IMG/VR virus record: IMGVR_UViG_3300032087_002048
Span: 1-52,378 of that record
Strand: one strand, 5' to 3'
DNA: 52,378 bases
From: a virus
Below the pieces are notes generated by a model. It was not told the origin of the DNA and made no database searches. It saw only the letters and a list, made by a program, of their open reading frames with translations. The stretch's first letter is position 1. Each line of letters opens with the position of its first letter. Positions 1 through 14,330 of the stretch are shown in pieces. Position numbers and translations under genes: made by a program.

Positions 1-1
1 A

Positions 2-786: not shown

Positions 787-1093
787 GGCTCAACAAGAGC
801 AAGCAGGTTATGACTATGCAGGGTATGGTAAAATATCAGACCTTAAGCTAACACCAGAGCAGTTGAAATCTGCTGTGGATATTATGTGGGGCATCTGCAT
901 GGAAATGGACAAGGACACTAGAGATAGGGATTACCTATTCGGTGGTGGACTTATTAAGTCTAAGGATATATTCCTGTCTCAAAAGGAGAAAGACGTAAAG
1001 ATACCAAAGGACAAAGAGGAAAAGTTTCGTGAGAAATTAGAGAACATGAGACCTTTGGTAGAGTTTTTAATCAAGTTAAAAGAAATAATCTAA
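731..1093 (+). CDS. Hypothetical protein, 120 aa
   Basis: Unrecognised. I chose the ATG at 731 (MGKMDKKELD) rather than the longer reading from 671, because the earlier residues overlap the previous gene's coding sequence and look like noise; the ATG at 740 is an alternative. The protein is hydrophilic and helical with many K/E pairs in the second half (KEKDVKIPKDKEEKF). Its stop is shared with the start of the next gene in a TAATG overlap, implying translational coupling. Confidence 0.55.
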   Translation: MGKMDKKELDSLLTKISSKAQQEQAGYDYAGYGKISDLKLTPEQLKSAVDIMWGICMEMDKDTRDRDYLFGGGLIKSKDIFLSQKEKDVKIPKDKEEKFREKLENMRPLVEFLIKLKEII

Positions 1094-1587: not shown

Positions 1588-1589
1588 TC

Positions 1590-1802
1590 ATGGAAAAATT
1601 ATATTTAGTATTTTGGGAAGGCGATGGCTGTAGTAGAGAATCAGCAAGCGCATATTACACGGAAGTAGTTGAAGCAACTTCAAAAGCAGAAGCAATAGGT
1701 AAGGTTCTACCTTATGTTGAGAAAGACTTTGAAAGCGAGGAACAATACAAAGAGGAACTGGCTGATTGGTCAGCAGAATTGGTTAGAAAAATAATTAGAT
1801 AA
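1590..1802 (+). CDS. Hypothetical small acidic protein, 70 aa
   Basis: A small protein beginning MEKLYLVFWEGDGC, two bases after the previous stop. The pattern of strand (KLYLVFWEG), loop, helix (SKAEAIGKVLPYVEKD) and a charged C-terminal helix resembles small alpha/beta phage proteins, but I recognise no family. It is the last gene before the promoter at 1820-1851, so it may end an operon segment; no terminator hairpin is visible after it. Confidence 0.55.
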   Translation: MEKLYLVFWEGDGCSRESASAYYTEVVEATSKAEAIGKVLPYVEKDFESEEQYKEELADWSAELVRKIIR

Positions 1803-1819
1803 TTAACGAATCCAAGCGA

Positions 1820-1851
1820 TTTGGAAATTAGAATAATAATCCGTACATTTG
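1820..1851 (+). promoter_or_regulatory. Bacteroidota-type promoter
   Basis: TTTG at 1820-1823 and TACATTTG at 1844-1851 are separated by 20 bp. This matches the -33 TTTG / -7 TAnnTTTG consensus of the Bacteroidota housekeeping sigma factor. It lies 18 bp before the ATG at 1870 and should drive the recombination module. Confidence 0.8.
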
Positions 1852-1869
1852 TACACTAAATCAAATATT

Positions 1870-2223
1870 ATGCAAATAAAAAAACTTCAAATACCAGATG
1901 ATATGGCTGAACACTTAGGTGTGGATAAAGCCAAGACTGATGCTAAACTAGCAGCAATCGTAGAATCTAAGAAAGGTCTAACTGTAGATGAAATCTTAGA
2001 CAGTAAGAAAATGTGTGATGACTACAAGGATTTTACACATGGTGAAATGGTAGCATTATTTATGGACTCTGCGTCAGAGGCAGGTTACCTTAGATATAAG
2101 ATGGAGAGACTCCTTGATTCTGGTATTGTAGACCCCGAAGAATTAATTGAATTTATGGAACAGGGTAATCCTGATACAGATTTACTAGGCGATATATTTG
2201 GTTCACCAAAAGATTTTCTTTAA
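1870..2223 (+). CDS. Hypothetical protein, 117 aa
   Basis: The first ATG after the promoter, at 1870 (MQIKKLQIPDD), is taken as the start; a longer reading from TTG 1849 would begin inside the -7 element. The protein is acidic and helical and ends GSPKDFL. No domain is recognised. It is the first gene of the unit containing the ERF protein and the RecE-like nuclease, so a link to recombination or replication is possible but unproven. Confidence 0.6.
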   Translation: MQIKKLQIPDDMAEHLGVDKAKTDAKLAAIVESKKGLTVDEILDSKKMCDDYKDFTHGEMVALFMDSASEAGYLRYKMERLLDSGIVDPEELIEFMEQGNPDTDLLGDIFGSPKDFL

Positions 2224-2239
2224 CCCTTAAAAATAACAA

Positions 2240-2869
2240 ATGGCAAACAAGTTAAACATTAGACAAAAACTGTCTAAAATCCAACAAGAAATTAAAGTAA
2301 ACAAAAGCCAATACAATGCTTTTGGTAAGTATTACTACCGTTCAGCAGAGGATATATTAGAAGCTATCAAGCCTTACGAACTTAAGTATGATGTACTGTT
2401 TACAGTAAATGATACTATGATTCCTATTGTTGAAGCAGTGGATACTCCATTGGTATATATACAATCATTGGCTACTATAATGGACTGCGAGACAGAGGAA
2501 AGTTTATCTGTAAGTGGTCAAGCATTAATTGACTTTCAAGCTAAGGGTATGCAAATGCCACAACGTACAGGGGCAGCGAGTAGCTATGCTAAGAAGTATG
2601 CATTAGGTAACCTGTTGCTATTGGATGACACCAAAGACCCTGATGGCACTAACACACATGGTAAGGACTTAGCAAAAGCACCTGCCAAGCCTGCAACTGC
2701 GAGACTTAAGGCTATGACACCAGAAGAAGCCAAAAAGTTTAATACGGCTATTGCAGAAGGTAAATTTGCACAGGTAGAGAAATACCTACCCAAGTATGCA
2801 GATAGTATGGTTAAAGAAGATGTTCTAAAGGCATTAGCTGACGCTAAATCAGGTATACTAAAAAAGTAA
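2240..2869 (+). CDS. erf: ERF-family single-strand annealing protein
   Basis: 209 residues. The N-terminal half reads as an ERF superfamily recombinase (RecT/Red-beta functional class): a helical start, then KYYYRSAEDILEAIKP, then a QRTGAASSYAKKYAL segment matching the family's conserved end where many ERF members read Q..GsA.TYArRYaL. The family anneals complementary single strands during phage recombination. The C-terminal ~65 residues are a K/A-rich linker and small helical tail. The next gene encodes a RecE-like exonuclease and an SSB-like gene lies 1.8 kb on, which completes the usual recombination trio. Confidence in the family is high from these motifs. Confidence 0.85.
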   Translation: MANKLNIRQKLSKIQQEIKVNKSQYNAFGKYYYRSAEDILEAIKPYELKYDVLFTVNDTMIPIVEAVDTPLVYIQSLATIMDCETEESLSVSGQALIDFQAKGMQMPQRTGAASSYAKKYALGNLLLLDDTKDPDGTNTHGKDLAKAPAKPATARLKAMTPEEAKKFNTAIAEGKFAQVEKYLPKYADSMVKEDVLKALADAKSGILKK

Positions 2870-2874
2870 TAGAT

Positions 2875-3645
2875 ATGGAAGAACATGATGAGATTATAGA
2901 ACTCCTACGTGATGATGCTAACTATTTCGGTGAACTAGGGAGTAGGTTCATATCTAATTCAGACATTAATGTGCTATGTAATAACCCAGACCTATATGGT
3001 AAGATACAGTATGATGACAATGCTGATTACCTTAAGGGTAAATGGCTACACCTTAGAGTTCTTGAACCTGATAATGTAGACAGTATGATTGTTGTTGATG
3101 CAACTACCAGAAACACAACAGCTTATAAGGAAATTGTAGAAAAGCATACTATTGATGGCTTTCCAAAACCTATGTTTCTCTTGAAGAAAGAGATTGTAGA
3201 GTTGGAAGGTCTTGCACGTAAGGTGGAACTTAACCCTGACTTTCGTGAGGGTCTTCAAGACCATAGGAAACCGTTTGAGGTAGAAGAACCAATGATAGGC
3301 GAACTGTTTGGTTACCAATTTAAAGGTAAGGCTGACAGGATTAATAACACTCTTGGGTTTGTGGCTGATTTTAAAACAACTAGGTCACTCTCACAATTCA
3401 AGAAGAACTTTAAACAATATGGTTATCACACACAGGCTTACATATATCAAGAACTGTTTGGGATGCCTGTAAGGTTCTATGTTATTGACAAATCTAATGG
3501 AAGACTAGGCATATATGATGTAAGCCCTGAGACCCTGCAACAGGCTGAGGAGCGTGTTAAGTGGGGCTTAGAGAAGTTAGAAATGTACTACGGTCAAACC
3601 CCTACAGAAAATGTAGAACAATATTACGAATATTTAGAACTTTAA
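2875..3645 (+). CDS. PD-(D/E)XK exonuclease, RecE/exonuclease VIII-like
   Basis: 256 residues. The C-terminal half has the RecE/Cas4/AddB-type nuclease core: KGKADRIN near residues 150-157 (metal-binding Asp), then VADFKTT near 162-168 giving the D-x-K pair, then a helix with YGYHTQAYIYQ (Q-x3-Y motif). This arrangement fits the DUF3799/exodeoxyribonuclease VIII-like group, which resects double-stranded DNA 5' to 3' for an annealing protein. It follows the ERF gene by 5 bp, so the pair should form a two-component recombination system. Active-site residues appear intact. Confidence 0.8.
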   Translation: MEEHDEIIELLRDDANYFGELGSRFISNSDINVLCNNPDLYGKIQYDDNADYLKGKWLHLRVLEPDNVDSMIVVDATTRNTTAYKEIVEKHTIDGFPKPMFLLKKEIVELEGLARKVELNPDFREGLQDHRKPFEVEEPMIGELFGYQFKGKADRINNTLGFVADFKTTRSLSQFKKNFKQYGYHTQAYIYQELFGMPVRFYVIDKSNGRLGIYDVSPETLQQAEERVKWGLEKLEMYYGQTPTENVEQYYEYLEL

Positions 3646-3669
3646 TATTAATTTAATCCAAATTCAATT

Positions 3670-4164
3670 ATGAGAAATTTAATGATGGCAGTAGCTTTAC
3701 TGTTTGCCACAGTGACATTTGCACAAACATGGGAAACTGTAACCTACAAAGATGATTTTGGAGACCCTACAGGAGAAAAAGCATTACGTTTAATAACTAC
3801 AGGGCTATTCTCAAATAGCGCAACTAGTAATTCTAAAACGGCTGCTAAGGTTGTAGTTGATTTTGACTATGAAAATATCGAAACAAACCTTAAAGGAAGT
3901 TTAGATGTATATGACTATGCCACACCACCTGCTGCAACACTAACATACACAAGCGCACATGGAACTATCAAAGTTAAAAGAGAAGATGGAACTGTTGAGC
4001 ATTATAAAGTGTTTGCAAGTGAAAATGGAGGGATGTACTTCTATCAAGATTTCTTAGACTTACTAATGCAAGGTCATCGTGAGAAAATCCAAGTTGTTAT
4101 TAGCGAAAGGAATTTTTCAAAGTATGGGAGTTCAATTTATGTATTCCCTTTATACACAAGATAA
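3670..4164 (+). CDS. Secreted or periplasmic protein with signal peptide, unknown function
   Basis: 164 residues. The start MRNLMMAVALLFATVTFAQ is a clear Sec signal peptide ending in the FAQ cleavage site common in Flavobacteriia. The mature part is beta-rich (KVVVDFDYEN, GTIKVKRED, KIQVVISERN) and soluble-looking, with no cysteine pair or lipobox. No family is recognised. It sits between the recombination genes and a secreted lysozyme-like gene on the early arm, so it probably acts in the host periplasm or outer membrane early in infection. Superinfection exclusion or envelope modification are possible roles, by inference only. Confidence 0.65.
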   Translation: MRNLMMAVALLFATVTFAQTWETVTYKDDFGDPTGEKALRLITTGLFSNSATSNSKTAAKVVVDFDYENIETNLKGSLDVYDYATPPAATLTYTSAHGTIKVKREDGTVEHYKVFASENGGMYFYQDFLDLLMQGHREKIQVVISERNFSKYGSSIYVFPLYTR

Positions 4165-4213
4165 GCTGCCGTAATGGTAGGGGCTATGCCCAAGTGATAA
4201 CCAAATCTATTTT

Positions 4214-4630
4214 ATGAGAAAGTGTTTAATTGTTTGCATGTTATTAGCAATGAAAGCTAATGCAAATGAGTACAAGGAAATTATTGAAGTGCTTAAGCAC
4301 GTAGAAACCAACAACCAACCCGAACTAATCGGGGATAATGGAGATAGCTACGGAGTATTGCAAATTCAATGGCGAGCGGTACAAGATGTAAACAGGTACT
4401 TTGGTACTAACTACACACATGACCAGATGTTTAGAGTCGAGTGTGCAGAGGAAGTAACAAGCCTGTACATGCAGATGGGAGCAGAATTGTACGAGAAACG
4501 TACAGGAAAGCAACCTACAGAGGAAATCCTTGTTAGAAATCACAACGGTGGTATCTACAGAGGTTACAAAGTTAAAGCAACACTTAATTATTATCAAAAG
4601 TACCTACGGTACAAATCTAAATTAAATTAA
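4214..4630 (+). CDS. Secreted lysozyme-like / SLT transglycosylase-like protein
   Basis: 138 residues. A short signal peptide (MRKCLIVCMLLAMKANA) precedes the mature start NEYKEIIEVLKHVET. E31 falls where the catalytic Glu of lysozyme-fold transglycosylases sits (…VE(S/T)NN…), and GDNGDSYGVLQIQ after it matches the GD..SyGllQI signature. A later RNHNGG..GY segment matches the family's NGG region. The enzyme class cleaves the MurNAc-GlcNAc bond. It is on the early arm, apart from the holin and amidase, so it may be used for envelope modification rather than final lysis; a lysis role remains possible. Confidence 0.7.
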   Translation: MRKCLIVCMLLAMKANANEYKEIIEVLKHVETNNQPELIGDNGDSYGVLQIQWRAVQDVNRYFGTNYTHDQMFRVECAEEVTSLYMQMGAELYEKRTGKQPTEEILVRNHNGGIYRGYKVKATLNYYQKYLRYKSKLN

Positions 4631-4633
4631 CGA

Positions 4634-4665
4634 TTTGCATATTACGAATTAGTGTCGTATATTTG
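4634..4665 (+). promoter_or_regulatory. Bacteroidota-type promoter for the SSB-like gene
   Basis: TTTG at 4634-4637 and TATATTTG at 4658-4665, separated by 20 bp, match the consensus on both elements. The ATG of the SSB-like gene is at 4690. Together with the hairpin at 5052-5079 it makes this gene a separately controlled single-gene unit. Confidence 0.85.
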
Positions 4666-4689
4666 CAGTCTAAAACAAATTTAAAAGTT

Positions 4690-5028
4690 ATGAGTGATTT
4701 AAAAGTGACTGGCACAATAACCAGAATTATGGACATCGTAACAGGAGAATCCGCAAACGGTGCATGGTCGAAAGTAGTTTTCGCCATTGAAACAGATGGT
4801 GAATATCCTAAGACGGTAGCGTTCACAATCTTTGGTGCTGATAAGGTAGACAAATTCCTTAAGTACAACAAAGTAGGAAAAAAGGTAGAGGTTTCCTTCG
4901 ATGTGAAAAGTCGTGAGTACGACGACAAATTCTTTACTGACTTAAATGCTTGGAAAGTGTGGGGTCTTGAAGGTCAAGAGGCTGCAGTACCTGCAGGTGA
5001 AGACGAAGAAGATGACCTGCCTTTCTAG
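4690..5028 (+). CDS. DUF3127-type single-stranded DNA-binding protein
   Basis: 112 residues from ATG 4690 (MSDLKVTGTITRIMD). A TTG at 4663 is in frame but overlaps the promoter -7 element. The pattern KVTGTI..I, WSKVVFAIETDGEYPKTVAF, VGKKVEVSFDVKSREY and FFTDLNAWKVW matches DUF3127, an OB-fold family typical of Bacteroidota. The C-terminus EDEEDDLPF copies the acidic, Phe-ended tail by which bacterial SSBs recruit partner proteins. Its own promoter and terminator suggest high expression. It should coat single-stranded DNA during replication and work with the ERF and RecE-like proteins. Confidence 0.8.
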   Translation: MSDLKVTGTITRIMDIVTGESANGAWSKVVFAIETDGEYPKTVAFTIFGADKVDKFLKYNKVGKKVEVSFDVKSREYDDKFFTDLNAWKVWGLEGQEAAVPAGEDEEDDLPF

Positions 5029-5051
5029 GGTAATTCGTATCTTAATTAATG

Positions 5052-5079
5052 ACCCTCACTACTACGGTGGGGGTTTTTT
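5052..5079 (+). terminator. Rho-independent terminator after the SSB-like gene
   Basis: An 8-bp stem (ACCCTCAC with GTGGGGGT, one G-T pair) with a 7-nt loop is followed by a T run. It lies 24 bp after the SSB-like stop. No clear promoter is seen before the next gene at 5101, so some read-through is likely. Confidence 0.8.
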
Positions 5080-5100
5080 AACCTCTAAATTCAACTTAAT

Positions 5101-5268
5101 ATGTTCAAAGTAAAACTAAAAGACGGCAGGTCTTATTCAGTAACAGAGGCACTTGCCGATTCAATGAGAGAAAACATTGAAAACAAAACAGACAAAGTGG
5201 TGTACCATGATAAACTTAATGGTTCATTTATGATTAAAACGTCTGACATACAATCAATAGAGTTATGA
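5101..5268 (+). CDS. Hypothetical small protein, 55 aa
   Basis: A small ORF reading MFKVKLKDGRSYSVTEALAD at its start and ending DIQSIEL. The strand pattern (FKVKLKDGRSY, FMIKTSDIQSIEL) resembles a small Sm-like or SH3-like barrel, though no family is recognised. Its TGA overlaps the ATG of the next gene (ATGA at 5265), and it fills an otherwise empty gap, which supports it as genuine and co-translated with the replisome-organiser-like gene. Confidence 0.6.
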   Translation: MFKVKLKDGRSYSVTEALADSMRENIENKTDKVVYHDKLNGSFMIKTSDIQSIEL

Positions 5269-5885
5269 AATGTAAGATTTGTAAGAGCGAAACGGACGTT
5301 GTACACTTAATCAACAGAGTTGAAGTACATGTATGCGACCATTGCTCTAAGATAATCTTCTATAACGTAGCCAAGTCTGTAGCGTTCAATAAAACTATCT
5401 TCGACATAGGTGCTAAGAAAGAACGCAAGCCAGTTGAACAGCATCCTGAGATTGCTGCCGATGTACTAACGTACCTCTACACCGAACTACTTAAGCAAAG
5501 GGATGCGTTTACTCCTGATAAAGTTCCACAAGGTTATTTGGAATTGATATCTGCCAGAGTAAACTACGGACACACAGTTGAAGAACTGAAAGCTGTTGCT
5601 TATTTAAAGTACAAGGAATGGGTAAACGGTGAGAATGAGAAGTATCTAAGAGCAGATACTCTTTATAGACCTACGAACTTTAAGCGTTATCTGGCTGAGG
5701 TTGAGGTTAAGAAACCTAATTGGAAAGTTGTAAGTACAGCAGACCAAAAGAAAATAATCAAAGAACTGAACTCTTACGGTATAAGTGGAGCGACAGACGA
5801 AACAGATAAACTAGCCAAGAAGTTAATGGCTACAGGCTATACCAGAAAAGAATTTCTTAATAACTACTTAAAAGAAAAGATATGA
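5265..5885 (+). CDS. Replisome-organiser-like protein: N-terminal zinc ribbon plus conserved phage C-terminal domain
   Basis: 206 residues. Cys3, Cys6, Cys24 and Cys27 form two CxxC pairs of a small zinc ribbon. Residues ~65-145 resemble the Phg_2220_C domain found at the C-terminus of phage replisome organisers and DnaD/DnaT-like initiators: VLTYLYTELLKQ, then ISARVNYGHTVEELKAV, then KEWVNG…YLRADTLYRPTNFKRYL. In relatives this domain ends initiation proteins that load the helicase. It sits two genes before the primase-helicase and overlaps both neighbours by 4 bp. Role inferred: origin or fork recognition. The domain here is followed by about 60 further residues, which is unusual. Confidence 0.65.
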   Translation: MKCKICKSETDVVHLINRVEVHVCDHCSKIIFYNVAKSVAFNKTIFDIGAKKERKPVEQHPEIAADVLTYLYTELLKQRDAFTPDKVPQGYLELISARVNYGHTVEELKAVAYLKYKEWVNGENEKYLRADTLYRPTNFKRYLAEVEVKKPNWKVVSTADQKKIIKELNSYGISGATDETDKLAKKLMATGYTRKEFLNNYLKEKI

Positions 5886-6355
5886 GTTACGATGACAACC
5901 CTTGTAGATTAGCTAACATTATTGTTAGAAAAGCATTCGCAGGTAAGACCGATAAAGCAGGTGTGCCTTACATTAATCACCTTGTAACAGTTGCACAAGG
6001 TGCAAGAGGATATATTTCTTATGGACATCAAGTTGATGACAAGGACATAGAATGCACAGCACTATTACATGACTTGCTTGAAGACTGCCCAGAATGGACA
6101 GAAGGTGCGCTTAGAACGCTGTTCAGCGAGACTGTGGTTGATGCTGTAGTAGCATTGACAAAGAAACCACAGAGCGAATCTTATAGAGAATACATACTAC
6201 GTGTAGCAGTCAATCCTTTAGCAAAGATTGTTAAGTTGGCTGACCTAAAACACAACATGGATATAACTCGTCAAAGGTCATTCAATGACGTAGACATTGA
6301 AAAACTACAGAAGTATCACCAAGCATATATAACCCTTAAAAATATCAATTCATAA
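5882..6355 (+). CDS. HD-domain phosphohydrolase, RelA/SpoT/MESH1-like
   Basis: 157 residues, an HD domain throughout. His33 (YINHL), the HDLLED motif at residues 63-68 and KLADLKHNMD near 117-126 match the metal-binding and substrate-binding motifs of the (p)ppGpp hydrolase branch of HD proteins (SpoT hydrolase domain, MESH1). No synthetase domain is present; the length fits a small alarmone hydrolase. Known members remove the 3' pyrophosphate of (p)ppGpp, and MESH1 also acts on NADPH. In a phage it may blunt the stringent response or alarmone-type defence; that is inference. It overlaps the genes on both sides. Confidence 0.75.
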   Translation: MSYDDNPCRLANIIVRKAFAGKTDKAGVPYINHLVTVAQGARGYISYGHQVDDKDIECTALLHDLLEDCPEWTEGALRTLFSETVVDAVVALTKKPQSESYREYILRVAVNPLAKIVKLADLKHNMDITRQRSFNDVDIEKLQKYHQAYITLKNINS

Positions 6356-8310
6356 TGAACGTAAGCGTATTCCCAGACATTAAGAAAGTAACAAGACCTC
6401 CTGCTAAAGTTAATGTAGATAAGGTGCTTGAACGAATCCGTACTGGCGAGAATGGCTTGAAGGAACTAATAGAAAGAATTAGGGTTGGTGATGGTAATCG
6501 TGAAGCACTTAAAAAAGAGTTAGGTGCGATTATCTTTGCAGGTTATTGTGGTAATGGGATAGAGAAAGTTAACAGGGCAACTGGTAATAAGTATCTATCC
6601 TATCGTGATGACCCCTCCCTTACAGAGCATAGTGGATTGTGTGTAATTGACTTAGACCATCTAACAGAGTTAGATAAGTGGAAGAAACACTTTATGACCG
6701 ATGAACACGTTTACTCTGTATTCGTTTCACCTAGTGGTGATGGTCTTAAAGTTATCTATCGCATACCTGCAGACATAGATATGCATAGAGCCTATTATCG
6801 AGCAATCCTTGATGATTTGCAAGGATTAGGACTTAAAGTAGACAGCACCAGTGTTAATGAATCTCGTGTATGTTTTATAAGCTATGACGCTAATATTCAC
6901 ATAAATAAGCAAGCAACTCCCTATGAGAAATTCATGGTGGAGAATGAGAGTGATGCCGATGATGGTGCTATTAAGAAAGGCACAGGCTTAACTGATTTTG
7001 AAAAGATGTCCATCGCTGCAAAGATGATTGATGGTGCAAGGGATGGTCATAAACACCGTACCTTAATTAAGGCATCCTATTTAATGGGTGGCTATATTGC
7101 ATCCAAGTTTGTTAGAGAGGATGACGCACGTAAGATGTTGCGTGATAGGATTAAAGCTAAAAGTCCATCTGATTTGGAAATGGCTTACAATACTATTGAG
7201 GATGGCTTACAGGAAGGTAAGCACAAACCTATCTATGAGATTGAGCAGATAGAGAAGGAATTTAAAGTTCAGCTATTACGTGATAAGTACGAGAGCGAGG
7301 ACAGAGGGTTTACATTCTTGATTGACCGTAACGAGACTGACCGCAAGATGATGGATATTATCGTTAATGGTGTGCAGCAGGGTCTACCTATAGGTATTCC
7401 AGAACTAGATAAGCACTTTAGGTTGAAGGAGAATAACTTTTCTGTGTTTCTTGGACATGACAACGTTGGTAAATCTACCCTTGTATGGTGGTTATCTGCT
7501 GTTGCTAGTGCCAAGCATGGTTGGAAATGGCTTATCTATTCACCAGAAAACAAGATAGAAAAGATTAAGATAAATCTTATGGACTATGTTCTTGGCAAGA
7601 GCGTTAAAGAATGTAGCCAAGCCCAGTTACAACTGGCTCGTAAGTTTATTGATGAACATTTTTACTTTATTCGTAAGGATAAGATGTACAGTATATATGA
7701 CGTATTAGAATTTGGTAGGGTAATGATTGATAAAGACCCTGCTATTAAAGGATTTATGATTGACCCTTACAACTCGTTGATGATGGACTATAAAGAATAT
7801 GGTCAAGGGCTGTCAGGTTATGAGTATCACATGAAAGCAATATCTGCTATTCGTATTTTCTCTGAAACCCATTGTAGTGTGTATGTTAATGCTCACTCGG
7901 TTACAGAATCAAGACGTATGAAGATAGACGATAACGGTGATATTCCACGTCCATTCAAAGCACACATTGATGGTGGTGCTATGTGGGGTAACCGATGTGA
8001 TGACTTTTTTGTTATCCATAGACAGGTTAAGAACCCTGAGACATGGATGATTACGCAGTTGCATGTTGATAAAGTTAAAGACACCGATGAAGGTGGCGAA
8101 GTAACGAGAGGTGAAGACGAGGCTGTTGAATTGCAATTTTGGCATAAGGCAGACTTTGTTGACCCTGAGACTAGGAAAAGCCCACTTGCGGAATGGAGGC
8201 TTAAATTCTTCAAAGTGGGAACACAAAAAACAATGGTACTTGATGACCTTCCATCAGGTGACACTATGACTGGTGACCTTCCATTAGGTGACCCTAACAC
8301 AGCATTTTAA
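6355..8310 (+). CDS. Primase-helicase (VirE_N/BT4734-like primase plus DnaB-like RecA helicase)
   Basis: 651 residues. The N-terminal ~200 resemble the BT4734/VirE_N domain of Bacteroidota: CVIDLDH near residues 97-102 carries the acidic D-x-D pair and SPSGDGLKVIYRIP near 126-139 is the second conserved loop. The C-terminal half is a RecA-type ATPase: Walker A GHDNVGKST near 367-375 and Walker B-like FMIDPYNSLMMD near 467-478, followed by an AHSVTESRR segment. The fused design combines primer synthesis with strand unwinding, as in T7 gp4 but with a different primase fold. It starts on a TAATG overlap with the HD gene. The C-terminus has two copies of a DDLP/DLPLGD acidic motif that could bind SSB or polymerase. 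Confidence 0.8.
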   Translation: MNVSVFPDIKKVTRPPAKVNVDKVLERIRTGENGLKELIERIRVGDGNREALKKELGAIIFAGYCGNGIEKVNRATGNKYLSYRDDPSLTEHSGLCVIDLDHLTELDKWKKHFMTDEHVYSVFVSPSGDGLKVIYRIPADIDMHRAYYRAILDDLQGLGLKVDSTSVNESRVCFISYDANIHINKQATPYEKFMVENESDADDGAIKKGTGLTDFEKMSIAAKMIDGARDGHKHRTLIKASYLMGGYIASKFVREDDARKMLRDRIKAKSPSDLEMAYNTIEDGLQEGKHKPIYEIEQIEKEFKVQLLRDKYESEDRGFTFLIDRNETDRKMMDIIVNGVQQGLPIGIPELDKHFRLKENNFSVFLGHDNVGKSTLVWWLSAVASAKHGWKWLIYSPENKIEKIKINLMDYVLGKSVKECSQAQLQLARKFIDEHFYFIRKDKMYSIYDVLEFGRVMIDKDPAIKGFMIDPYNSLMMDYKEYGQGLSGYEYHMKAISAIRIFSETHCSVYVNAHSVTESRRMKIDDNGDIPRPFKAHIDGGAMWGNRCDDFFVIHRQVKNPETWMITQLHVDKVKDTDEGGEVTRGEDEAVELQFWHKADFVDPETRKSPLAEWRLKFFKVGTQKTMVLDDLPSGDTMTGDLPLGDPNTAF

Positions 8311-8317
8311 AAGTAAG

Positions 8318-8355
8318 AGATATGAAAGACCACGAAAAGTATGCGGAGGAAGTAA
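8318..8355 (+). repeat. 5' cassette repeat, copy 1
   Basis: A 38-bp direct repeat covering 'agat' plus the first 34 bases of the gene at 8322. It is identical to 8643-8680. Confidence 0.85.
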
Positions 8356-8528
8356 AGAATGACATTAAAAATATCCCTTTGTGTGGGGTAGATGACTTAG
8401 CAATCTATGTAATTCAAAAGCAGATAGATTTAGTGGATGAAATATCAGTACAATCAATGGCAGAGGTTGTGGTTAGAAAACATAAGCTACTTACAAAAGC
8501 AATAGAACACCTAAAACAGAAGATATGA
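8322..8528 (+). CDS. Small protein of the MKDHEKYAEEV / EHLKxKI mosaic set, 68 aa
   Basis: Starts MKDHEKYAEEVKNDIKN and ends KAIEHLKQKI. The middle is helical (IQKQIDLVDEI). The first 34 bases are identical to the start of the gene at 8647 and the last 26 are nearly identical to the ends of the two following ORFs, so the gene belongs to a locally duplicated family. Its stop overlaps the next start (ATGA at 8525). Function unknown. Confidence 0.6.
   Translation: MKDHEKYAEEVKNDIKNIPLCGVDDLAIYVIQKQIDLVDEISVQSMAEVVVRKHKLLTKAIEHLKQKI
8503..8528 (+). repeat. 3' cassette repeat, copy 1
   Basis: A 26-bp element encoding EHLKQKI and the stop. It differs at a few bases from copies 2 and 3 (8625-8650 and 8903-8928). 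Confidence 0.8.
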
Positions 8529-8650
8529 ATGCAGAAGATATTATTTGTCCACATTGCGGTTATTACTGCTTAGGAAATGGAGGAATATTTTGTATAGACA
8601 AACCATTTTTTGTACAACAAGAACTAGAACACCTAAAGACAAAGATATGA
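8525..8650 (+). CDS. Tiny cysteine-containing protein of the mosaic set, 41 aa
   Basis: Reads MNAEDIICPHCGYYCLGNGG at its start and ends LEHLKTKI. The CPHCGYYC segment looks like a zinc knuckle. The C-terminal tail is shared with the two flanking proteins while the rest is unrelated, so this is a chimera within the cassette. The start overlaps the upstream stop and its own stop overlaps the next start. Confidence 0.5.
   Translation: MNAEDIICPHCGYYCLGNGGIFCIDKPFFVQQELEHLKTKI
8625..8650 (+). repeat. 3' cassette repeat, copy 2
   Basis: A 26-bp element encoding EHLKTKI and the stop, identical to copy 3 at 8903-8928. Confidence 0.85.
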
Positions 8651-8680
8651 AAGACCACGAAAAGTATGCGGAGGAAGTAA
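8643..8680 (+). repeat. 5' cassette repeat, copy 2
   Basis: Identical over 38 bp to 8318-8355. It overlaps the end of 3' repeat copy 2, so the two repeat types are joined here. Confidence 0.85.
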
Positions 8681-8928
8681 GGGAGTTGTTTAAGGATGAT
8701 ATTTGCGAATGCGATTGTGAGGATAAAGAACATCAACACGATTCATTGAGTGGGTTTTGTGCAATTCATGCAGAAAAAAGAAAATCAAAATTAGCCATCA
8801 TCCACATACAAGGGCAGATAGATGAAATAAAAGAAGGAGTAAGATGGATTCATGGAGTATCAGAATACGCAGAAGGTAGGGTAGTATTTCTACAAAAAGC
8901 AATAGAACACCTAAAGACAAAGATATGA
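8647..8928 (+). CDS. Small protein of the MKDHEKYAEEV / EHLKxKI mosaic set, 93 aa
   Basis: The start is set at ATG 8647, where the repeat shared with 8322 begins; a longer frame from 8545 would overlap the 41-aa gene. The protein has the common N-terminus, then a Cys/His-rich segment (CECDCEDKEHQHD…GFCAIH) that may bind metal, then helices ending QKAIEHLKTKI. It is a longer paralogue of the 8322 product with an inserted middle. Function unknown. Confidence 0.6.
   Translation: MKDHEKYAEEVRELFKDDICECDCEDKEHQHDSLSGFCAIHAEKRKSKLAIIHIQGQIDEIKEGVRWIHGVSEYAEGRVVFLQKAIEHLKTKI
8903..8928 (+). repeat. 3' cassette repeat, copy 3
   Basis: A 26-bp element identical to 8625-8650. Together with copy 1 it shows that three consecutive small genes end with the same coded tail. 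Confidence 0.85.
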
Positions 8929-9059
8929 TGGAAAAACAAGATTTTATTAACAAAGAGAATTGCAGTCATCAGCTTAAACAAGGCTACCATGCAGAGGATT
9001 TTTGCGTGTACTGTGTAAAATGTGATTTAACCCTTAACGGAATAATATTAAAGACATAA
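8925..9059 (+). CDS. Tiny cysteine-rich protein, 44 aa
   Basis: Reads MMEKQDFINKENCSHQLKQG at its start, then HAEDFCVYCVKCDLTL. The spaced C-H and CxxCxxC residues suggest a small zinc-binding module. It overlaps the preceding stop by ATGA and lacks the EHLKTKI tail. The next ORF starts after the same AAGATATGAAA context seen in the cassettes. Function unknown. Confidence 0.45.
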   Translation: MMEKQDFINKENCSHQLKQGYHAEDFCVYCVKCDLTLNGIILKT

Positions 9060-9072
9060 AGGAAATAAAGAT

Positions 9073-9159
9073 ATGAAAAACATGAAATTACAAGCAAAAA
9101 TTGAATTAGTACTAATTGCCATTCTGTTTATTTGGCTGTTTATATTTTTTACCATTTAA
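9073..9159 (+). CDS. Tiny single-pass membrane protein, 28 aa
   Basis: MKNMKLQAKIEL followed by an almost purely hydrophobic stretch (VLIAILFIWLFIFFTI) that would span the membrane once. It lies between the mosaic set and the exported protein at 9172. Its small size makes the call uncertain, but the composition is typical of phage membrane microproteins. Confidence 0.45.
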   Translation: MKNMKLQAKIELVLIAILFIWLFIFFTI

Positions 9160-9171
9160 AGAAGAAGAATT

Positions 9172-9681
9172 ATGAAAAAACTATTGACAATCGCAATGTT
9201 ATTTGCAACGTGTGCAATTTTTGCACAAACCAGTTTCGCTATTGGAGCAGGTGTATTTGAACAGTCTGGAATTATAGGCGTAAGTCTAGGAATGCAGACA
9301 GAAGTAAACCATGAGTTTACTAGAAACTTTGGGGTGACAGGAGATTTCACCTATGCTAAGTTACAAGATGGTGATGGTAGAGAAGTCTATCTTATGGGTG
9401 GGTTAATAGACACGCCTGATGGTTCTACCTTTAATCAAGCATCTATGCTTGTAACGTATAAGATATTCACCTATGACGAGAGAATGGCAATTCGTATAGG
9501 AGCAGGTGGTGCGTATCAGAACTGGGAAGACATTTACCCAACAGCGCAGTTAGACCTTATTGCTTTTGCGGATGCAAACTTTTACCCTTATCTTTCATGG
9601 CAACCAGTATTTAGAGGTGGCTTTGGTGAAGGTGATGGATGGTCACATACAGTAACAATAAACCTAGCAATTAAGTTATGA
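9172..9681 (+). CDS. Exported outer-membrane beta-barrel-like protein, 169 aa
   Basis: The start MKKLLTIAMLFATCAIFAQ is a strong Sec signal peptide. The mature chain alternates short amphipathic strands with glycine turns (SFAIGAGVFEQ, GVTGDFTYAKLQ, MAIRIGAGGAYQNW, HTVTINLAIKL), which looks like a small outer-membrane barrel of about eight strands; the final strand ends in hydrophobic residues. No specific family is claimed. As an early-arm exported protein it could alter the host surface, for example by masking the receptor. The stop overlaps the next gene start. Confidence 0.6.
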   Translation: MKKLLTIAMLFATCAIFAQTSFAIGAGVFEQSGIIGVSLGMQTEVNHEFTRNFGVTGDFTYAKLQDGDGREVYLMGGLIDTPDGSTFNQASMLVTYKIFTYDERMAIRIGAGGAYQNWEDIYPTAQLDLIAFADANFYPYLSWQPVFRGGFGEGDGWSHTVTINLAIKL

Positions 9682-9953
9682 AAGTAAAACTCTTAAAGAA
9701 ACTGAAAAAGAAATTCCCTATCAAATACTACAAACTTAGGGATGAAGTAAAAGATTTTCAAACTGGTGAGTTAATCAAAGGAAGGTTTGTTGTTGTTAGA
9801 CCTTATTATCTTTCAGAAAGTGGTAGGAAAAATGTACACATATACTGTTCAACCAAGAAGGATGCTCTAAGAAACCGAAGGGAGATTATCTTTGATGAAT
9901 TGAACTACCAAAGAAAAAGAAAGGAACGCCAATATAAAACTATTACAATATGA
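9678..9953 (+). CDS. Hypothetical basic protein, 91 aa
   Basis: Very basic (KVKLLKKLKKKFPIKYYKLRDE…RRKR-type composition) with beta strands in the middle (GRFVVVRPYYL) and a lysine/arginine-rich C-terminus. It may bind nucleic acid. It overlaps both neighbours by 4 bp (ATGA), so it is part of the same translational chain as the dNMP kinase. No family recognised. Confidence 0.55.
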   Translation: MKVKLLKKLKKKFPIKYYKLRDEVKDFQTGELIKGRFVVVRPYYLSESGRKNVHIYCSTKKDALRNRREIIFDELNYQRKRKERQYKTITI

Positions 9954-10450
9954 AGTTATTAATTATAGGTCATGCAAGACATGGCAAGGACACAGTAGCG
10001 GAAATAATTGGTCAGCACTTTGGATTAACATATAAAGCATCCTCTCAGGCAGCAGCCGATATATTCATATATGATGAACTTAAAGAGAAGTATGGTTATG
10101 AAACACCAGAAGAATGCTTTAAGGACAGAATGAATCACAGGGCTGAATGGCACGATATGATTTGTGAGTACAACAAAGATGACAAGGCTAGATTAGCTAA
10201 AGGTATTTTAGAACATGCTGACATCTACGTAGGAATGCGTTCTAGCGCAGAGATAAAGGAATCTATAAGACAGAGCCTATTTGACTACGTTATATCTGTT
10301 TACGACCCTAGAAAACCATTAGAAGGTAAAGACAGCTTTGACATAGACATCTGGGTGGATGCAGACATTGTTATCCCTAACGCAGGTAGCCTGTGGGATT
10401 TAAGAGTGAAGGTTCATAAAATAATCAAAGGACTTAGTTATGGTAGATAA
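9950..10450 (+). CDS. Deoxynucleoside monophosphate kinase
   Basis: 166 residues. The P-loop GHARHGKDT at residues 7-15 after a beta strand (MKLLII) is the signature of phage deoxynucleotide monophosphate kinases of the T4 gp1 type. ADIFIYDEL and GMRSSAEI follow where substrate and LID contacts lie. The enzyme converts dNMPs to dNDPs with ATP. It is shorter than T4 gp1 but carries the core. It stands with ThyX and ribonucleotide reductase, forming a dNTP supply set. The 3' end overlaps the next gene by 11 bp. Confidence 0.75.
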   Translation: MKLLIIGHARHGKDTVAEIIGQHFGLTYKASSQAAADIFIYDELKEKYGYETPEECFKDRMNHRAEWHDMICEYNKDDKARLAKGILEHADIYVGMRSSAEIKESIRQSLFDYVISVYDPRKPLEGKDSFDIDIWVDADIVIPNAGSLWDLRVKVHKIIKGLSYGR

Positions 10451-10904
10451 CTTAGGTAAGAAGATAATAAACGACCTTAAGGAAGGTAAGAAGTATGAGG
10501 AACTTTTCATGCAGAAGTTACGTGAGAGTGGTGTCGAGTGTAAGCGTTCAAGCAAAATGCAAGACATATACGACCACATAGACGTTATAGACGAGAAAGG
10601 AATCACATACGATGTCAAAGGATATAAGGGGTTTCATTTTGTCTGGTTAGAGTTTATGAATGTCAGAGGCAATAAAGGTTGGATGAAGGGCAGAGCAGAT
10701 AGAATTGCTTTCTGGCTTAACGACAAGTTTTATGTTGTCAATAGACAAACGCTGTACGATTGGTGCAAGGAGCATTTACCTAACGTACCTCCACAATACG
10801 ACAAGAGTATGTTCTATACACCTTACAGACGTAAGGGCAGAAAGGATATACTTATCAAAGTAAAAGTAGAAGATGTAACTAAACACGCAATATTAATATT
10901 ATGA
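10440..10904 (+). CDS. PD-(D/E)XK nuclease-like protein, 154 aa
   Basis: The segment around residues 44-60 (YDHIDVIDEKGITYDVKG) has the spacing of a nuclease core: Asp48 in HID, Asp58 and Lys60 in YDVKG, with Glu20/21 upstream. It is followed by FVWLEFMNVRGNKGW and a helix, as in Holliday-junction-resolvase-like folds. A specific family is not recognised. The basic C-terminus (YRRKGRKD) could contact DNA. It is placed within the nucleotide metabolism genes and may recycle host DNA; that is inference. Confidence 0.55.
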   Translation: MVDNLGKKIINDLKEGKKYEELFMQKLRESGVECKRSSKMQDIYDHIDVIDEKGITYDVKGYKGFHFVWLEFMNVRGNKGWMKGRADRIAFWLNDKFYVVNRQTLYDWCKEHLPNVPPQYDKSMFYTPYRRKGRKDILIKVKVEDVTKHAILIL

Positions 10905-11557
10905 CAAAAGTAGAATTAGTAACTAAGACAGAGGGTGTTGAGAGATATATGTCTCTAACGTCAGATGAAATTGTAGAGGCTGTTGCTAGACATGGTGAAA
11001 TTAAAGATGCAGGTAAACTAATCAAGTATCTTATCAAGCACAAACATTGGTCACCACTAGAGCATGTACACTTTACGTTTCGCATAGAGACAGCTAGGGA
11101 TGTATCAGCACAGATGATGCGACACAGAAGTTTCCATTGGCAAGAGTTATCACAACGTTATGATGTGATACAGGAGTTCATGCCTATAGAATTACGTAAG
11201 CAAGGCACAACTAATAGACAGGTTGGTGATGAAGTATTTGACCCCGAATATGCTCGTCATGGGGTTTCATGTAGTCAAGCTATTGAATTACATATTAAAA
11301 AGACCCAAGAGATGTATGATAATCTAATTAGAGAAGGTGTTGCCAGAGAATGCGCTAGACGTATATTACCAATGTGTGCAAAGACAGTTGTACACATGAC
11401 TGGTAACCTTAGAGATTTCTTAGGGTATCTTAATGTACGCTGTGAAGCAGGTACTCAAAAAGAACATAGAGAAGTTGCTATGGCTATAGGTAAAGCCTTA
11501 GAGAAAGAGTTTCCACCTCTTGCTGAATTAGACTGGAAGGAAGGAGGATTTATGTAA
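10901..11557 (+). CDS. thyX: Flavin-dependent thymidylate synthase ThyX
   Basis: 218 residues, the normal length. The ThyX motif RHR-x7-S appears as RHRSFHWQELS at residues 74-84, followed by QRY. HKHWSPLEHVHFTFRIE before it matches the N-terminal FAD-binding region and LRDFLGYLNVRCEAGTQKEHRE matches the C-terminal conserved block. ThyX makes dTMP from dUMP using FAD, NADPH and methylene-tetrahydrofolate. It overlaps the upstream gene (ATGA) and shares a TAATG with the next. Confidence is high. Confidence 0.95.
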   Translation: MTKVELVTKTEGVERYMSLTSDEIVEAVARHGEIKDAGKLIKYLIKHKHWSPLEHVHFTFRIETARDVSAQMMRHRSFHWQELSQRYDVIQEFMPIELRKQGTTNRQVGDEVFDPEYARHGVSCSQAIELHIKKTQEMYDNLIREGVARECARRILPMCAKTVVHMTGNLRDFLGYLNVRCEAGTQKEHREVAMAIGKALEKEFPPLAELDWKEGGFM

Positions 11558-11703
11558 TGTTAAATCAAGAACGATATTTAGCAAAAGGTCACATAGAAGC
11601 ATATCTGTCTGACTGTAGAGAAAAGAACATTAACCCCTTGTGTATGAGATGCTTAAGGGAATATTTAGACAAACATTATGGAACAGATAGAGGAACACAT
11701 TAA
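11557..11703 (+). CDS. Hypothetical tiny protein, 48 aa
   Basis: Starts MLNQERYLAKGHIEAYLSDC and ends YGTDRGTH, with an NPLCMRCL segment giving a CxxC. It begins on a TAATG overlap with thyX and overlaps the next gene start at 11678 by 26 bp. The tight coupling supports a real gene; function unknown. Confidence 0.5.
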   Translation: MLNQERYLAKGHIEAYLSDCREKNINPLCMRCLREYLDKHYGTDRGTH

Positions 11704-11950
11704 ACTAATTAAACAATACTTTGGTGATGAACCACAATGCTACCTTGTAGCACTATTCTTAGCTACAGAGTTTAAGGGTGAGATATGGTACGATAATCAC
11801 CATTGTTTAACAAGAATAAAAGATAAGTTTTATGACAAGCATGGTCTATACGAAGGTAGTTTAAAGGACTTTTGTCCTCTTAAGAGATATGGTTTTAACC
11901 ATGATGCAGGACTTATGCAAGCACTAATAGAAAAACATTCATATGAATAG
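11678..11950 (+). CDS. Hypothetical protein, 90 aa
   Basis: Compact, mixed alpha/beta, aromatic-rich (EIWYDNHHCLTRIKDKFYDK). HH and Cys residues might bind metal, but no motif is secure. It overlaps the next gene by 8 bp. Placed within the nucleotide metabolism set; no family recognised. Confidence 0.55.
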   Translation: MEQIEEHIKLIKQYFGDEPQCYLVALFLATEFKGEIWYDNHHCLTRIKDKFYDKHGLYEGSLKDFCPLKRYGFNHDAGLMQALIEKHSYE

Positions 11951-12143
11951 AATAGAACAGTTAATTGAAGATTACCTTAAAAGAATTGAAACCACTGAAG
12001 AACTGATTGAGGAGAATGAATATTTAATCAAGGTAACTGTGTTTGCAAACTGTCGCCCTTTCTTTGATAAAAGAGCCAGATTAGAGACTAAACTAGAATG
12101 CTATAAATCCTTTATCGCTGAGTTACAGCGCATTGTAAATTGA
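11943..12143 (+). CDS. Hypothetical coiled-coil protein, 66 aa
   Basis: Mostly one long charged helix (IEQLIEDYLKRIETTEELIEEN…) with heptad-like leucine and isoleucine spacing, suggesting a small coiled coil. The stop at 12143 lies just before the promoter core at 12155-12162, and the -33 region overlaps the end of this gene. Function unknown. Confidence 0.5.
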   Translation: MNRIEQLIEDYLKRIETTEELIEENEYLIKVTVFANCRPFFDKRARLETKLECYKSFIAELQRIVN

Positions 12144-12162
12144 AGACTTTTCCGTATCTTTG
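12132..12162 (+). promoter_or_regulatory. Bacteroidota-type promoter for the RNR gene
   Basis: TATCTTTG at 12155-12162 is a perfect -7 core. ATTG at 12132-12135, 19 bp upstream, is a one-mismatch -33 element. The RNR start codon is 37 bp downstream of the core. Confidence 0.75.
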
Positions 12163-12198
12163 TAACCCCTTTTATTAACTAAACAAACACATAAATTA

Positions 12199-14097
12199 AT
12201 GATTAAACAACGAGAGGTTGCCTTTGGTGACTTGGGCTTAATAACCTATCTACGAACATATTCAAGAAAGAAAAAAGATGGCACAAAAGAATCCTTTTCT
12301 GATACGGTGGAAAGAGAACTACAAGGTGCTAAGAAACAATTAAAAGTAGACTTTACCCCAGAAGAAGAAGAATACTACAGATACATGCGACATGAAATGC
12401 TTGGCTCTGTAGCAGGTAGATTTATGTGGCAGTTGGGTACTAAGACAGTTGATAAGTTGGGGCTACCTAGCTTACAGAACTGTGCATTTACAGTAATTGA
12501 TACACCAATAAGACCATTTACGTGGGCTATGGACATGCTTATGCTTGGTTCTGGTGTTGGTTATTCAATTAAGAGAGAACACGTCTACAAGCTACCTAAG
12601 ATTCAGCGTAGGAAGGTTAAGATAGAGAACGTTAACCTAGCAAGTGCTGACTATATTGTTCCCGATACAAGGGAAGGATGGGTTAAGCTGTTGGGTAAAG
12701 TTCTTAAGTCTTATTTCTACTCTGGTGTAGGGTTTACTTATAGCACACAACTGGTGCGTGGTAAAGGAGAACCCATTGAAGGATTTGGTGGTACAGCATC
12801 AGGAGCAGCTATTCTTGTAGAGGGTATGCAACTTATATGTGGTGTACTGGATGCCAGACGTGGGCAGCAGATAAGACCTATCGATTGCTTGGACGTTATG
12901 AACATCATAGGCATGATAGTGGTTGCAGGGAATGTTAGACGTTCAGCGCAGATAGCTATTGGTGATTACGATGATTTAGATTTCCTTAAGGCTAAACGAT
13001 GGGATTTAGGTGGTGTTCCTAATTGGAGGGCAATGAGTAATAACTCTGTTGATATTATTGACTTTGATTCATTACCGCTAGAGTTCTGGGAGACTTATAA
13101 TCAAGGAGAGCCTTACGGTATGATTAACCTTGACCTTTCAAGGAAGGTAGGACGTTTAGGTGAAACACAATATCCTGACCCTGACGTAGAAGGTTATAAC
13201 CCTTGTGCAGAACAATCGCTTAATCCCTATGAAACATGCTGTCTAGCAGAAATGTATCTACCAAATATCAAGTCATACAAGGAGTTCAAAAAAGTAATGA
13301 CATTGTTATACAGAATTAACAAGCACTCGTTGGCATTAAAGTGTCACAACAAAGAGACAGAGGCTATTGTTAATAAGAATATGAGGATGGGCATTGGTAT
13401 TACAGGCGTTATGCAAGCTACAGAAGAACAGCTTAGTTGGTTGAAACCTGCTTATGAATACCTTAGAGCATACGATAAAGAATACTCAAAACACATGGGC
13501 TTTCCAGAATCTATTAAATTAACTACTGTTAAGCCATCAGGTACGCTGTCGTTGTTAGCAGGTTGTACGTCTGGTGTTCACGCTGCTACAGCAGGTAGGT
13601 TCTTCATCAGAAGAATAACAATAGCATCGGATTCTCCTCTTATTGAGGTAGTTAAGTCGCATGGTTACCATGTTGAGTATAAGAAAAACCTTGATGGTTC
13701 TAACGATTACTCTAGTATGATTGCGGAGTTTCCTTGCAAGTACCCAGAAGGTACTATAAGTGCAGAAGATATAGACATCATCGACCAATTAGAAATGGTT
13801 AAGTTCATGCAAACCAACTGGTCAGATAACTCTGTATCAGTAACAGCATACTACAAGAAAGAAGATATTCCAAGATTAAAGAAATACTTATCAGAAAACT
13901 GGCACGATAGTTTTAAAACGTTAAGTTTCTTACTATATACAGGTCATGGGTTTGTGCAAGCACCCTTTGAGCCAATTAGTGAAGAACAATATGAGTTCCT
14001 AGCAGCCAAAGTTAAACCTATTCTCTCAGCAGACATTAATGAGGAGGATATGGATGAACTAGGAGCGTGTGGCATCGGAGGATGCCCAATAAAATAG
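12199..14097 (+). CDS. nrdJ: Adenosylcobalamin-dependent (class II) ribonucleoside-triphosphate reductase
   Basis: 632 residues. Hallmarks of the monomeric class II enzyme: QNCAFTVIDTP with Cys95, GSGVGYSIKREHV, NPCAEQ with Cys336 and Glu338 (radical Cys and catalytic Glu), TCCLAE with Cys347/348 completing the redox pair with Cys95, and a C-terminal ACGIGGCPIK with Cys624 and Cys629 that re-reduces the active site. It is somewhat shorter than the ~740-residue Lactobacillus enzyme. It reduces NTPs to dNTPs and needs B12 from the host, but not oxygen. It has its own promoter and lies between thyX and the DNA polymerase. Confidence 0.9.
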   Translation: MIKQREVAFGDLGLITYLRTYSRKKKDGTKESFSDTVERELQGAKKQLKVDFTPEEEEYYRYMRHEMLGSVAGRFMWQLGTKTVDKLGLPSLQNCAFTVIDTPIRPFTWAMDMLMLGSGVGYSIKREHVYKLPKIQRRKVKIENVNLASADYIVPDTREGWVKLLGKVLKSYFYSGVGFTYSTQLVRGKGEPIEGFGGTASGAAILVEGMQLICGVLDARRGQQIRPIDCLDVMNIIGMIVVAGNVRRSAQIAIGDYDDLDFLKAKRWDLGGVPNWRAMSNNSVDIIDFDSLPLEFWETYNQGEPYGMINLDLSRKVGRLGETQYPDPDVEGYNPCAEQSLNPYETCCLAEMYLPNIKSYKEFKKVMTLLYRINKHSLALKCHNKETEAIVNKNMRMGIGITGVMQATEEQLSWLKPAYEYLRAYDKEYSKHMGFPESIKLTTVKPSGTLSLLAGCTSGVHAATAGRFFIRRITIASDSPLIEVVKSHGYHVEYKKNLDGSNDYSSMIAEFPCKYPEGTISAEDIDIIDQLEMVKFMQTNWSDNSVSVTAYYKKEDIPRLKKYLSENWHDSFKTLSFLLYTGHGFVQAPFEPISEEQYEFLAAKVKPILSADINEEDMDELGACGIGGCPIK

Positions 14098-14110
14098 GCT
14101 GTGGTAAGTC

Positions 14111-14139
14111 GGGGTAGTTGGTCTTTTGGTCGCTACCCC
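14111..14139 (+). terminator. Hairpin after the RNR gene, overlapping the next promoter
   Basis: GGGGTAG (14111-14117) pairs with CTACCCC (14133-14139) across a 15-nt loop, 14 bp after the RNR stop. The tract after it is A/T-rich but without a long T run (taattttg). The loop contains the -33 TTTG of the next promoter, so it may act as a weak terminator or attenuator. Confidence 0.5.
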
Positions 14140-14156
14140 ATAATTTTGTAACTTTG
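14125..14156 (+). promoter_or_regulatory. Bacteroidota-type promoter for the polymerase unit
   Basis: TTTG at 14125-14128 and TAACTTTG at 14149-14156, separated by 20 bp. It is followed 16 bp later by the ATG of the 52-aa ORF and then the DNA polymerase gene. Confidence 0.75.
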
Positions 14157-14171
14157 TAAAAATCAAATAAA

Positions 14172-14330
14172 ATGGAAAAAAGAATTGAAGACTTAGAAAA
14201 AGCTGTTGGTCTTATGACTGTAATACTAGAACAGCACTCACTCCAAATACGACACCTATTGGGTCACATAGATTCATTGGTAAAGTTATATGGTGATGAA
14301 AAACAGAATGATAACGAAAAATTCCTATAA
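14172..14330 (+). CDS. Small coiled-coil protein ahead of the DNA polymerase, 52 aa
   Basis: Reads MEKRIEDLEKAVGLMTVILE at the start and ends NDNEKFL; the heptad-like leucine pattern suggests a short coiled coil. It starts 16 bp after the promoter core and its TAA overlaps the polymerase ATG (TAATG), so the two are coupled. It may be a polymerase accessory or a translational leader; the function is unknown. Confidence 0.55.
   Translation: MEKRIEDLEKAVGLMTVILEQHSLQIRHLLGHIDSLVKLYGDEKQNDNEKFL

Follow-up and report, generated by a model that had tools for sequence, protein, structure and literature searches.

The window analysed here is a stretch of viral DNA of 52,378 nucleotides (IMG/VR record IMGVR_UViG_3300032087_002048). 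Four very small open reading frames, ORF1 to ORF4, lie at 8322-9059, 3' of the primase-helicase gene (which ends at 8310), and are chained by three ATGA stop/start overlaps of 4 nt each, as an earlier note on this DNA had described. The genes concerned are the following.

2240..2869, + strand: ERF-type annealing protein (Pfam PF04404, E = 3.5e-31), a candidate recombinase
6355..8310, + strand: primase-helicase, the conserved left anchor of the site (PHROG 18375, E = 8.4e-61; Pfam PF08800, E = 3.5e-16; 66-83% amino acid identity in four relatives)
8322..8528, + strand: ORF1, 68 aa, probable paralogue of ORF3
8525..8650, + strand: ORF2, 41 aa, a Cys microdomain (approximately residues 3-32) fused to the tail
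8647..8928, + strand: ORF3, 93 aa, predicted helices at residues 3-14, 39-67 and 73-91, with a Cys/His-rich stretch between the first two
8925..9059, + strand: ORF4, 44 aa, containing Cys and His, without the shared head or tail
9950..10450, + strand: dNMK-like gene, the right anchor in several relatives (weak Pfam DNMK match, E = 0.018, below the cut-off)

In codon-usage scoring, the annotated frame ranked first of the six frames for all four ORFs. The same cassette arrangement was present in a sibling contig (IMGVR_UViG_3300031841_002893, L003), which showed 0 differences over 8201-10000 and patchy differences outside this interval. The identical cassette in the sibling makes an assembly artefact unlikely; being identical over 8201-10000, the sibling carries no information on constraint. 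When positions 1-15000 of the window were compared with the sibling, the differences were clustered at 1-1000, 5000-6500 and 14000-14500, with few or none in the long stretches between. This clustering suggests recent exchange between near-identical phages.

Similarity searches with the four ORFs gave little. All PHROG matches had E values of at least 0.04, and among the PADLOC models only ORF1 had a match at E <= 1 (PycTM, E = 0.025, 12.4 bits, 47 residues), which does not qualify the ORFs as anti-phage defence genes. By tblastn against phages, ORF1 and ORF3 were unmatched at E <= 1 and ORF4 was unmatched at E <= 10. A blastn search of phages with the whole cassette returned nine records with matches of 25-33 bases (E 0.2 to 0.8), which were dismissed. 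As a guess, the four products might be small accessory early factors.

The ends of these genes are repeated, in the following copies.

8318..8355, + strand: head repeat copy 1, 38 bp exact, beginning 4 nt 5' of the ORF1 start
8643..8680, + strand: head repeat copy 2, 38 bp exact
8487..8528, + strand: tail copy T1 (ORF1), 22/26 of the shared tail, with a 21-bp exact stretch in common with T3
8609..8650, + strand: tail copy T2 (ORF2), last 26 bp identical to T3
8887..8928, + strand: tail copy T3 (ORF3), last 26 bp identical to T2

The 38-bp head had been reported for two ORFs and was found exactly so; it is the longest exact direct repeat of the window. The longest repeat arising by chance in 2000 order-2 Markov versions of 8311-8928 was 16 bp. 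The 26-bp tail had been reported for three ORFs; it is exact in ORF2 (8625-8650) and ORF3 (8903-8928), but ORF1 matches it at only 22 of 26 positions and has another exact stretch of 21 bp in common with ORF3 (from 8495 and 8895). The three tail copies have a 13-bp core in common, and their differences were clustered on its left or its right. All three tails match up to the ATGA and the next 12 bases differ, an abrupt change at a gene boundary such as is expected of mosaicism. Among viral contigs, the head pattern matched one stretch, that of the sibling. The tail pattern matched seven, one of them the sibling, and the cassette was not seen in the other six (read in frame and over 400 nt downstream, with L007 cut by the contig end).

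The exactness of the repeats at the DNA level would suit DNA or RNA elements, such as recombination or replication sites or a regulatory RNA, to which the ORFs would be incidental. This is considered highly improbable: all four frames score as coding, Rfam gave no match up to E = 1 over 7900-9300, and the tail repeats stop at the stop/start joint.

The middles of the genes had been described as all different. This holds for the CPHCGYYC of ORF2 and the CECDC...H...H stretch of ORF3, but those of ORF1 and ORF3 are probably homologous. BLASTP of ORF1 against ORF3 over the full length, shared ends included, gave E = 9e-11. After removal of head and tail, LAIxxIQxQIDxxxE was the best local match, its score being reached by 51 of 5000 shuffles (approximately p = 0.01), and ORF3 has a Cys/His-rich stretch of approximately 22 aa that is extra relative to ORF1. 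ORF1 and ORF3 are thus probably paralogues whose middles have diverged. A model of ORF3 built from a two-sequence alignment (pLDDT 74.6, pTM 0.64) contains three helices, the first two separated by the Cys/His stretch, and a Foldseek search of the PDB with this model gave 175 matches at E <= 10 and none at E <= 0.001. When the ORF1/ORF3 alignment was used as the query, the sibling was the single viral locus matched, and genome_contigs gave no match. No similarity of ORF4 to ORF1, ORF2 or ORF3 was detected (671, 545 and 1755 of 2000 shuffles reached the respective scores).

Between ORF1 and ORF3, identical bases made up 59/63 of the ends (11 head and 10 tail codons) and 66/141 of the middle (Fisher p = 1.4e-11), and identical codons at identical degenerate residues were 18/19 in the ends and 7/15 in the middle (Fisher p = 0.004); the split between ends and middle was chosen post hoc, so these Fisher values overstate the case. 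This contrast points either to separate histories of ends and middles or to selection on the ends at the DNA level. The second possibility leads to an account by plain tandem duplication and divergence, in which the ends are held by stronger selection, exchange between phages plays no part and ORF2 is a third copy that has decayed. ORF1 and ORF3 can indeed be aligned over their full length, and the head, which overlaps a start, and the tail, which overlaps a stop/start joint, are plausible targets of selection. However, 10 of 10 degenerate codons are kept in the head, compared with 7 of 15 at identical residues in the middle, and the body of ORF2 has relatives of its own elsewhere and no similarity to the middle of ORF1 or ORF3 (693 and 1660 of 2000 shuffles reached the scores). 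Plain duplication is therefore regarded as unlikely, though it keeps an appreciable share of the probability.

Among the four ORFs, ORF2 is the one clear chimera. Its body is a Cys microdomain of the form CPxCGYYC…C, and residues 4-32 align with the N-terminal part of a 122-aa Vibrio phage PWH3a-P1 protein, with 18 of 29 positions identical. A search for CPxCGYYCxG with a DNA pattern matched 21 stretches of viral_contigs, the sibling among them (fewer than one chance match was expected, by a hand estimate with an assumed collection size), and a longer pattern for the module matched two bacterial MAG contigs. In some very short ORFs the module is close to the end; in longer ones it is internal or at the start, and it has varied contexts and other partners. 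Several of these loci look alike (L028/L030/L041/L046, L033/L036, L027/L038 and L040/L044), so there are fewer contexts than loci. Very small ORFs of L031, L040, L042 and L044 have a variant module, CPHCGYYC[TR]GK..xC, preceded by a short stretch of basic and aromatic character.

The module was aligned in 24 members (the window, the Vibrio record, 20 viral loci and two MAG loci, with the sibling left out). CPxCGYYCxG itself is fixed by the pattern used for selection and is not evidence of conservation. A fourth Cys (C23 of ORF2), outside both search patterns, was present in 24/24 members, and C[IV][DN]K could be read from the alignment in 19/24; conservation therefore extends beyond the residues of the search patterns. 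None of 23 module members, most of them given as pieces of approximately 30 residues, matched Pfam, PHROGs or NCBIfam at E <= 0.01. Residues 4-13 of ORF2 resemble the zinc ribbon Zn_ribbon_3 of Pfam (E = 0.015), but the score of 15.2 bits is below the curated cut-off of 27. The AlphaFold2 model of ORF2 was poor (pLDDT 62.1, pTM 0.29), and that the protein might bind zinc is a guess from its four Cys. No match to ORF2 was found in plasmids by tblastn at E <= 1. A phage search with two other module members found PWH3a-P1 (two records) alone at E <= 0.01. The strings CPVCGYYC, CPHCGYYC and CGYYCLG were not found in the literature searched, a limited sample, and they may be in print elsewhere.

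Two Aeromonas phages, 65 and avDM6, were considered as carriers of further module copies (98% and 91% coverage of the Vibrio protein) and rejected; their similarity is due to the downstream domain, and the two translated upstream genes have no CPxCGYYC. A Pelagibacter match (H54, E = 0.9) was antisense to an annotated gene and was dropped. In the Vibrio phage, an in-frame ATG follows AAGGAG just beyond the module, and the match to ZPAH1 begins at residue 33, so the module may be an N-terminal extension there.

The sequence of all three cassette overlaps is AGATATGA. Of its eight occurrences on the + strand of the window, six are at gene starts (ORF1 to ORF4, the gene at 9073 and the gene at 5882), and it forms a stop/start overlap at the starts of ORF2, ORF3 and ORF4 and of the gene at 5882. 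The joints of the cassette thus carry short conserved sequence, comprising AGATATGA at the starts of ORF1 to ORF4 and the exact repeats of 21, 26 and 38 bp. Where genes overlap by ATGA, the last residues of the upstream gene are read from the start context of the next gene, which gives endings such as LK[T/Q]KI and LKEKI; the latter, followed by the stop, closes the unrelated gene at 5265-5885 through the same kind of overlap. The very end of the tail (LK[T/Q]KI and the stop) is accordingly, in part, translated start region of the next gene. ORF4 does not overlap its downstream gene and has no tail. Because the match between T1 and T3 extends further upstream than any start region, the tail is more than a start signal, and its EHL part and upstream portion are attributed to common descent, a component of the overall explanation given below that shares its somewhat better than even standing.

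The earlier note had suggested that the constant tail could be a tag for localisation or partner binding, with modules swapped in front of it. EHLK[T/Q]KI does occur in three proteins, it closes the predicted C-terminal helix (73-91) of ORF3, and Lys-rich, helical-looking tails such as AIEAKLKEKN occur in other contigs. The coincidence of the tail with the start context of the next gene, the LKEKI ending of the gene at 5265-5885 and the lack of a tail in the non-overlapping ORF4 all speak against a tag, as does the tail pattern outside the sibling, where six viral stretches were matched without the cassette being seen. A tag is for these reasons quite unlikely, and the proposal did not hold as the main account of the tail.

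The only GenBank phage matching the primase-helicase with at least 80% coverage was a Maribacter phage, from which a Bacteroidota host is inferred. Flavobacterium johnsoniae mRNAs lack Shine-Dalgarno sequences, and A at -3 favours initiation, according to the passages on initiation in PMC6847099. Among the 17 overlapping joints of the window, two had a Shine-Dalgarno-like motif and seven had A at -3; the scarcity of the former fits F. johnsoniae and the latter does not clearly do so. The cassette joints have G at -3 and not the Kozak-like A.

Searches with the primase-helicase gave seven records besides the sibling, representing six distinct relatives, and in all of these the contents of the interval after this gene differ, as is expected of mosaicism. 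The dNMK-like gene was found by tblastn in L004, L015, L049, L050 and L051, and as a 22-codon remnant in Maribacter phage Panino (L012). Only 15 nt separate the helicase stop from the dNMK-like start in L004. In L049 and L050, which share 99.97% identity over 3,524 bp, the site contains a Cys ORF of 41 aa and another ORF of approximately 58 aa. L051 carries a 30-aa ORF together with three larger ones; an ORF of 320 aa is present in L015 and one of 123 aa in L014, which gave no dNMK match. Panino has a 41-aa Cys ORF, ORFs of 58 and 72 aa, and approximately 22 codons of the dNMK-like gene. The check proposed earlier, a comparison of this locus across related phages, did not bear out the exchange and yielded no cassette copies to count: ORF1 to ORF4 and the genes at 9172 and 9678 were unmatched by tblastn at E <= 0.05 in the seven relatives and in the distant L016 (several fragments, so that absence refers to the available stretch). 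No case in which these micro-ORFs had been swapped between these heads and tails was seen in the seven relatives, and no intermediates of ORF1 to ORF4 were found except in the sibling.

At 10476-10555 of Panino, the dNMK-like gene breaks off after approximately 22 codons and continues into a further copy of the 3'-terminal part of the Cys ORF (9932-10057). The two 3'-end copies agree at 24/29 nt, a value reached by 0 of 3000 shuffles, and at 31/48 over a longer stretch. This is read as a similar joint that would have formed independently at this site. The repeated EGYCSGTCFE tail was also considered as a second micro-ORF, which was rejected, as it follows the dNMK 5' remnant.

Some further features of these genomes were recorded. 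The 3' end of the primase-helicase gene in the window (8241-8296) contains a 26-nt direct repeat with a spacing of 30 nt (88%), giving DLPSGDTMTGDLPLGD, and the second copy is absent from the L004 and L014 proteins. A protein with a signal-peptide-like stretch is encoded between the primase-helicase and the dNMK-like gene both in the window (9172-9681) and in L051 (2504-3055), with no link between the two by tblastn at E <= 0.05. The ribonucleotide reductase ORF of L014 (10834-13656) has 940 aa, compared with 632 aa in the window, and the insert reads like a candidate intein.

Micro-ORF chains were also present in four mutually related contigs found through the Cys module (L028, L030, L041 and L046). 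Several micro-ORFs of these chains have the head MTITLTREEAQ.VL in common, and several end in tails of the AIEAKLKEKN type with the AAGGAG and ATG of the next ORF. L028 and L046 are 94.8% identical over 309 bp that begin close to the start of the ORF and take in the module; the remainder of the ORF gave no match at E <= 1e-3, and both ORFs end in KLKEKN-type tails that hold the AAGGAG...ATG of the next gene. A fixed front with an exchanged C-terminal part, the switch lying inside the ORF and past the module, was seen only in these other contigs. A Shine-Dalgarno-like motif was present in 34/47 of their overlapping joints (7/10, 17/21, 6/7 and 4/9 by contig), compared with 2/17 in the window, the underlying ORF lists being mechanical and including doubtful ORFs. 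The same joint design thus appears to be used in these contigs, mostly with Shine-Dalgarno-like joints.

Taken together, the locus is best explained, with confidence somewhat above even for the explanation as a whole, as a small operon of accessory micro-ORFs that overlap one another and occupy a variable site bounded by the primase-helicase and the dNMK-like gene. The cassette would have been built by recombination at short homologies at gene ends, a reading held a little more firmly than not, with those products surviving that kept the chain of starts. The helical micro-gene represented by ORF1 and ORF3 would have been duplicated or acquired twice, and the Cys-microdomain gene acquired and joined through short matching stretches at gene ends. 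Recombination of this kind, the best reading of the duplication and module swapping in the earlier note, is favoured by the codon contrast, the tail cores and the partners of the ORF2 module elsewhere; the three unrelated middles that went with the proposal were not upheld. ORF2, ORF3 and ORF4 each start inside the stop of the preceding gene (AGATATGA), the last bases of one gene serving as the start region of the next, so that a gene copied or swapped between two joints would keep its own start and supply that of its neighbour. Rearrangements with joints at these positions would therefore tend to survive. Translational coupling across the overlaps is presumed here, as is the recombination mechanism at the joints. 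ERF-type proteins anneal single strands, and the one in this phage, which the earlier note had correctly recognised, might have a role. The ends could instead be kept by selection on the peptide and the start region, and confidence in the explanation was lowered slightly because the cassette joints lack the Kozak-like A at -3 and because the division into ends and middle was post hoc.

Small genes in a row joined by stop/start overlaps are familiar from lambda. In the model of phage mosaicism, as it is put in the relevant passages of PMC3233612 and PMC3029335, exchange occurs at gene boundaries through short conserved sequences, and whether mosaicism arises by targeted boundary sequences or by random joining and selection is there called unclear. 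The present joints are similar in lying at gene boundaries with short shared sequences; they differ in that the shared sequence is a coding end with an overlapping stop and start, repeated inside one micro-operon. Modular shuffling mediated by PeSLs in T4-like phages (Arbiol 2010 and Comeau 2014, as cited in PMC4503421) likewise relies on a short repeated cassette between small genes as the shared shuffling sequence, but PeSLs, as portrayed there, are promoter/stem-loop cassettes, whereas the repeated unit here is a translation start joint with coding ends. Shuffling of protein fragments, with recent sharing of domains between otherwise different phage proteins, is the subject of PMC10684548, and a domain common to otherwise different phage proteins is the point of likeness; the terms 'small protein', 'short proteins', 'zinc' and 'boundary' were not found in its main text. 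Possibly new here are the Cys microdomain and a shared sequence that consists of an overlapping start joint plus coding ends and recurs along a single chain.

Micro-ORF chains with repeated ends allow such joints to be read base by base, and they predict that the shared tail should matter for translation of the next gene and not for the protein that bears it. The Cys microdomain is a recombining phage part that is unnamed in three annotation libraries. A broader view, put forward tentatively and thought more doubtful than probable, is that overlapping joints are a general exchange point for micro-genes in phages (with A-rich joints in a Bacteroidota-type phage and Shine-Dalgarno-like joints in other phages) and carry an undescribed mobile Cys microdomain. 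If this is true, the common tail peptides of many phage micro-ORFs would be by-products of the arrangement of the joints. A micro-gene dropped between two such joints would be translated at once.
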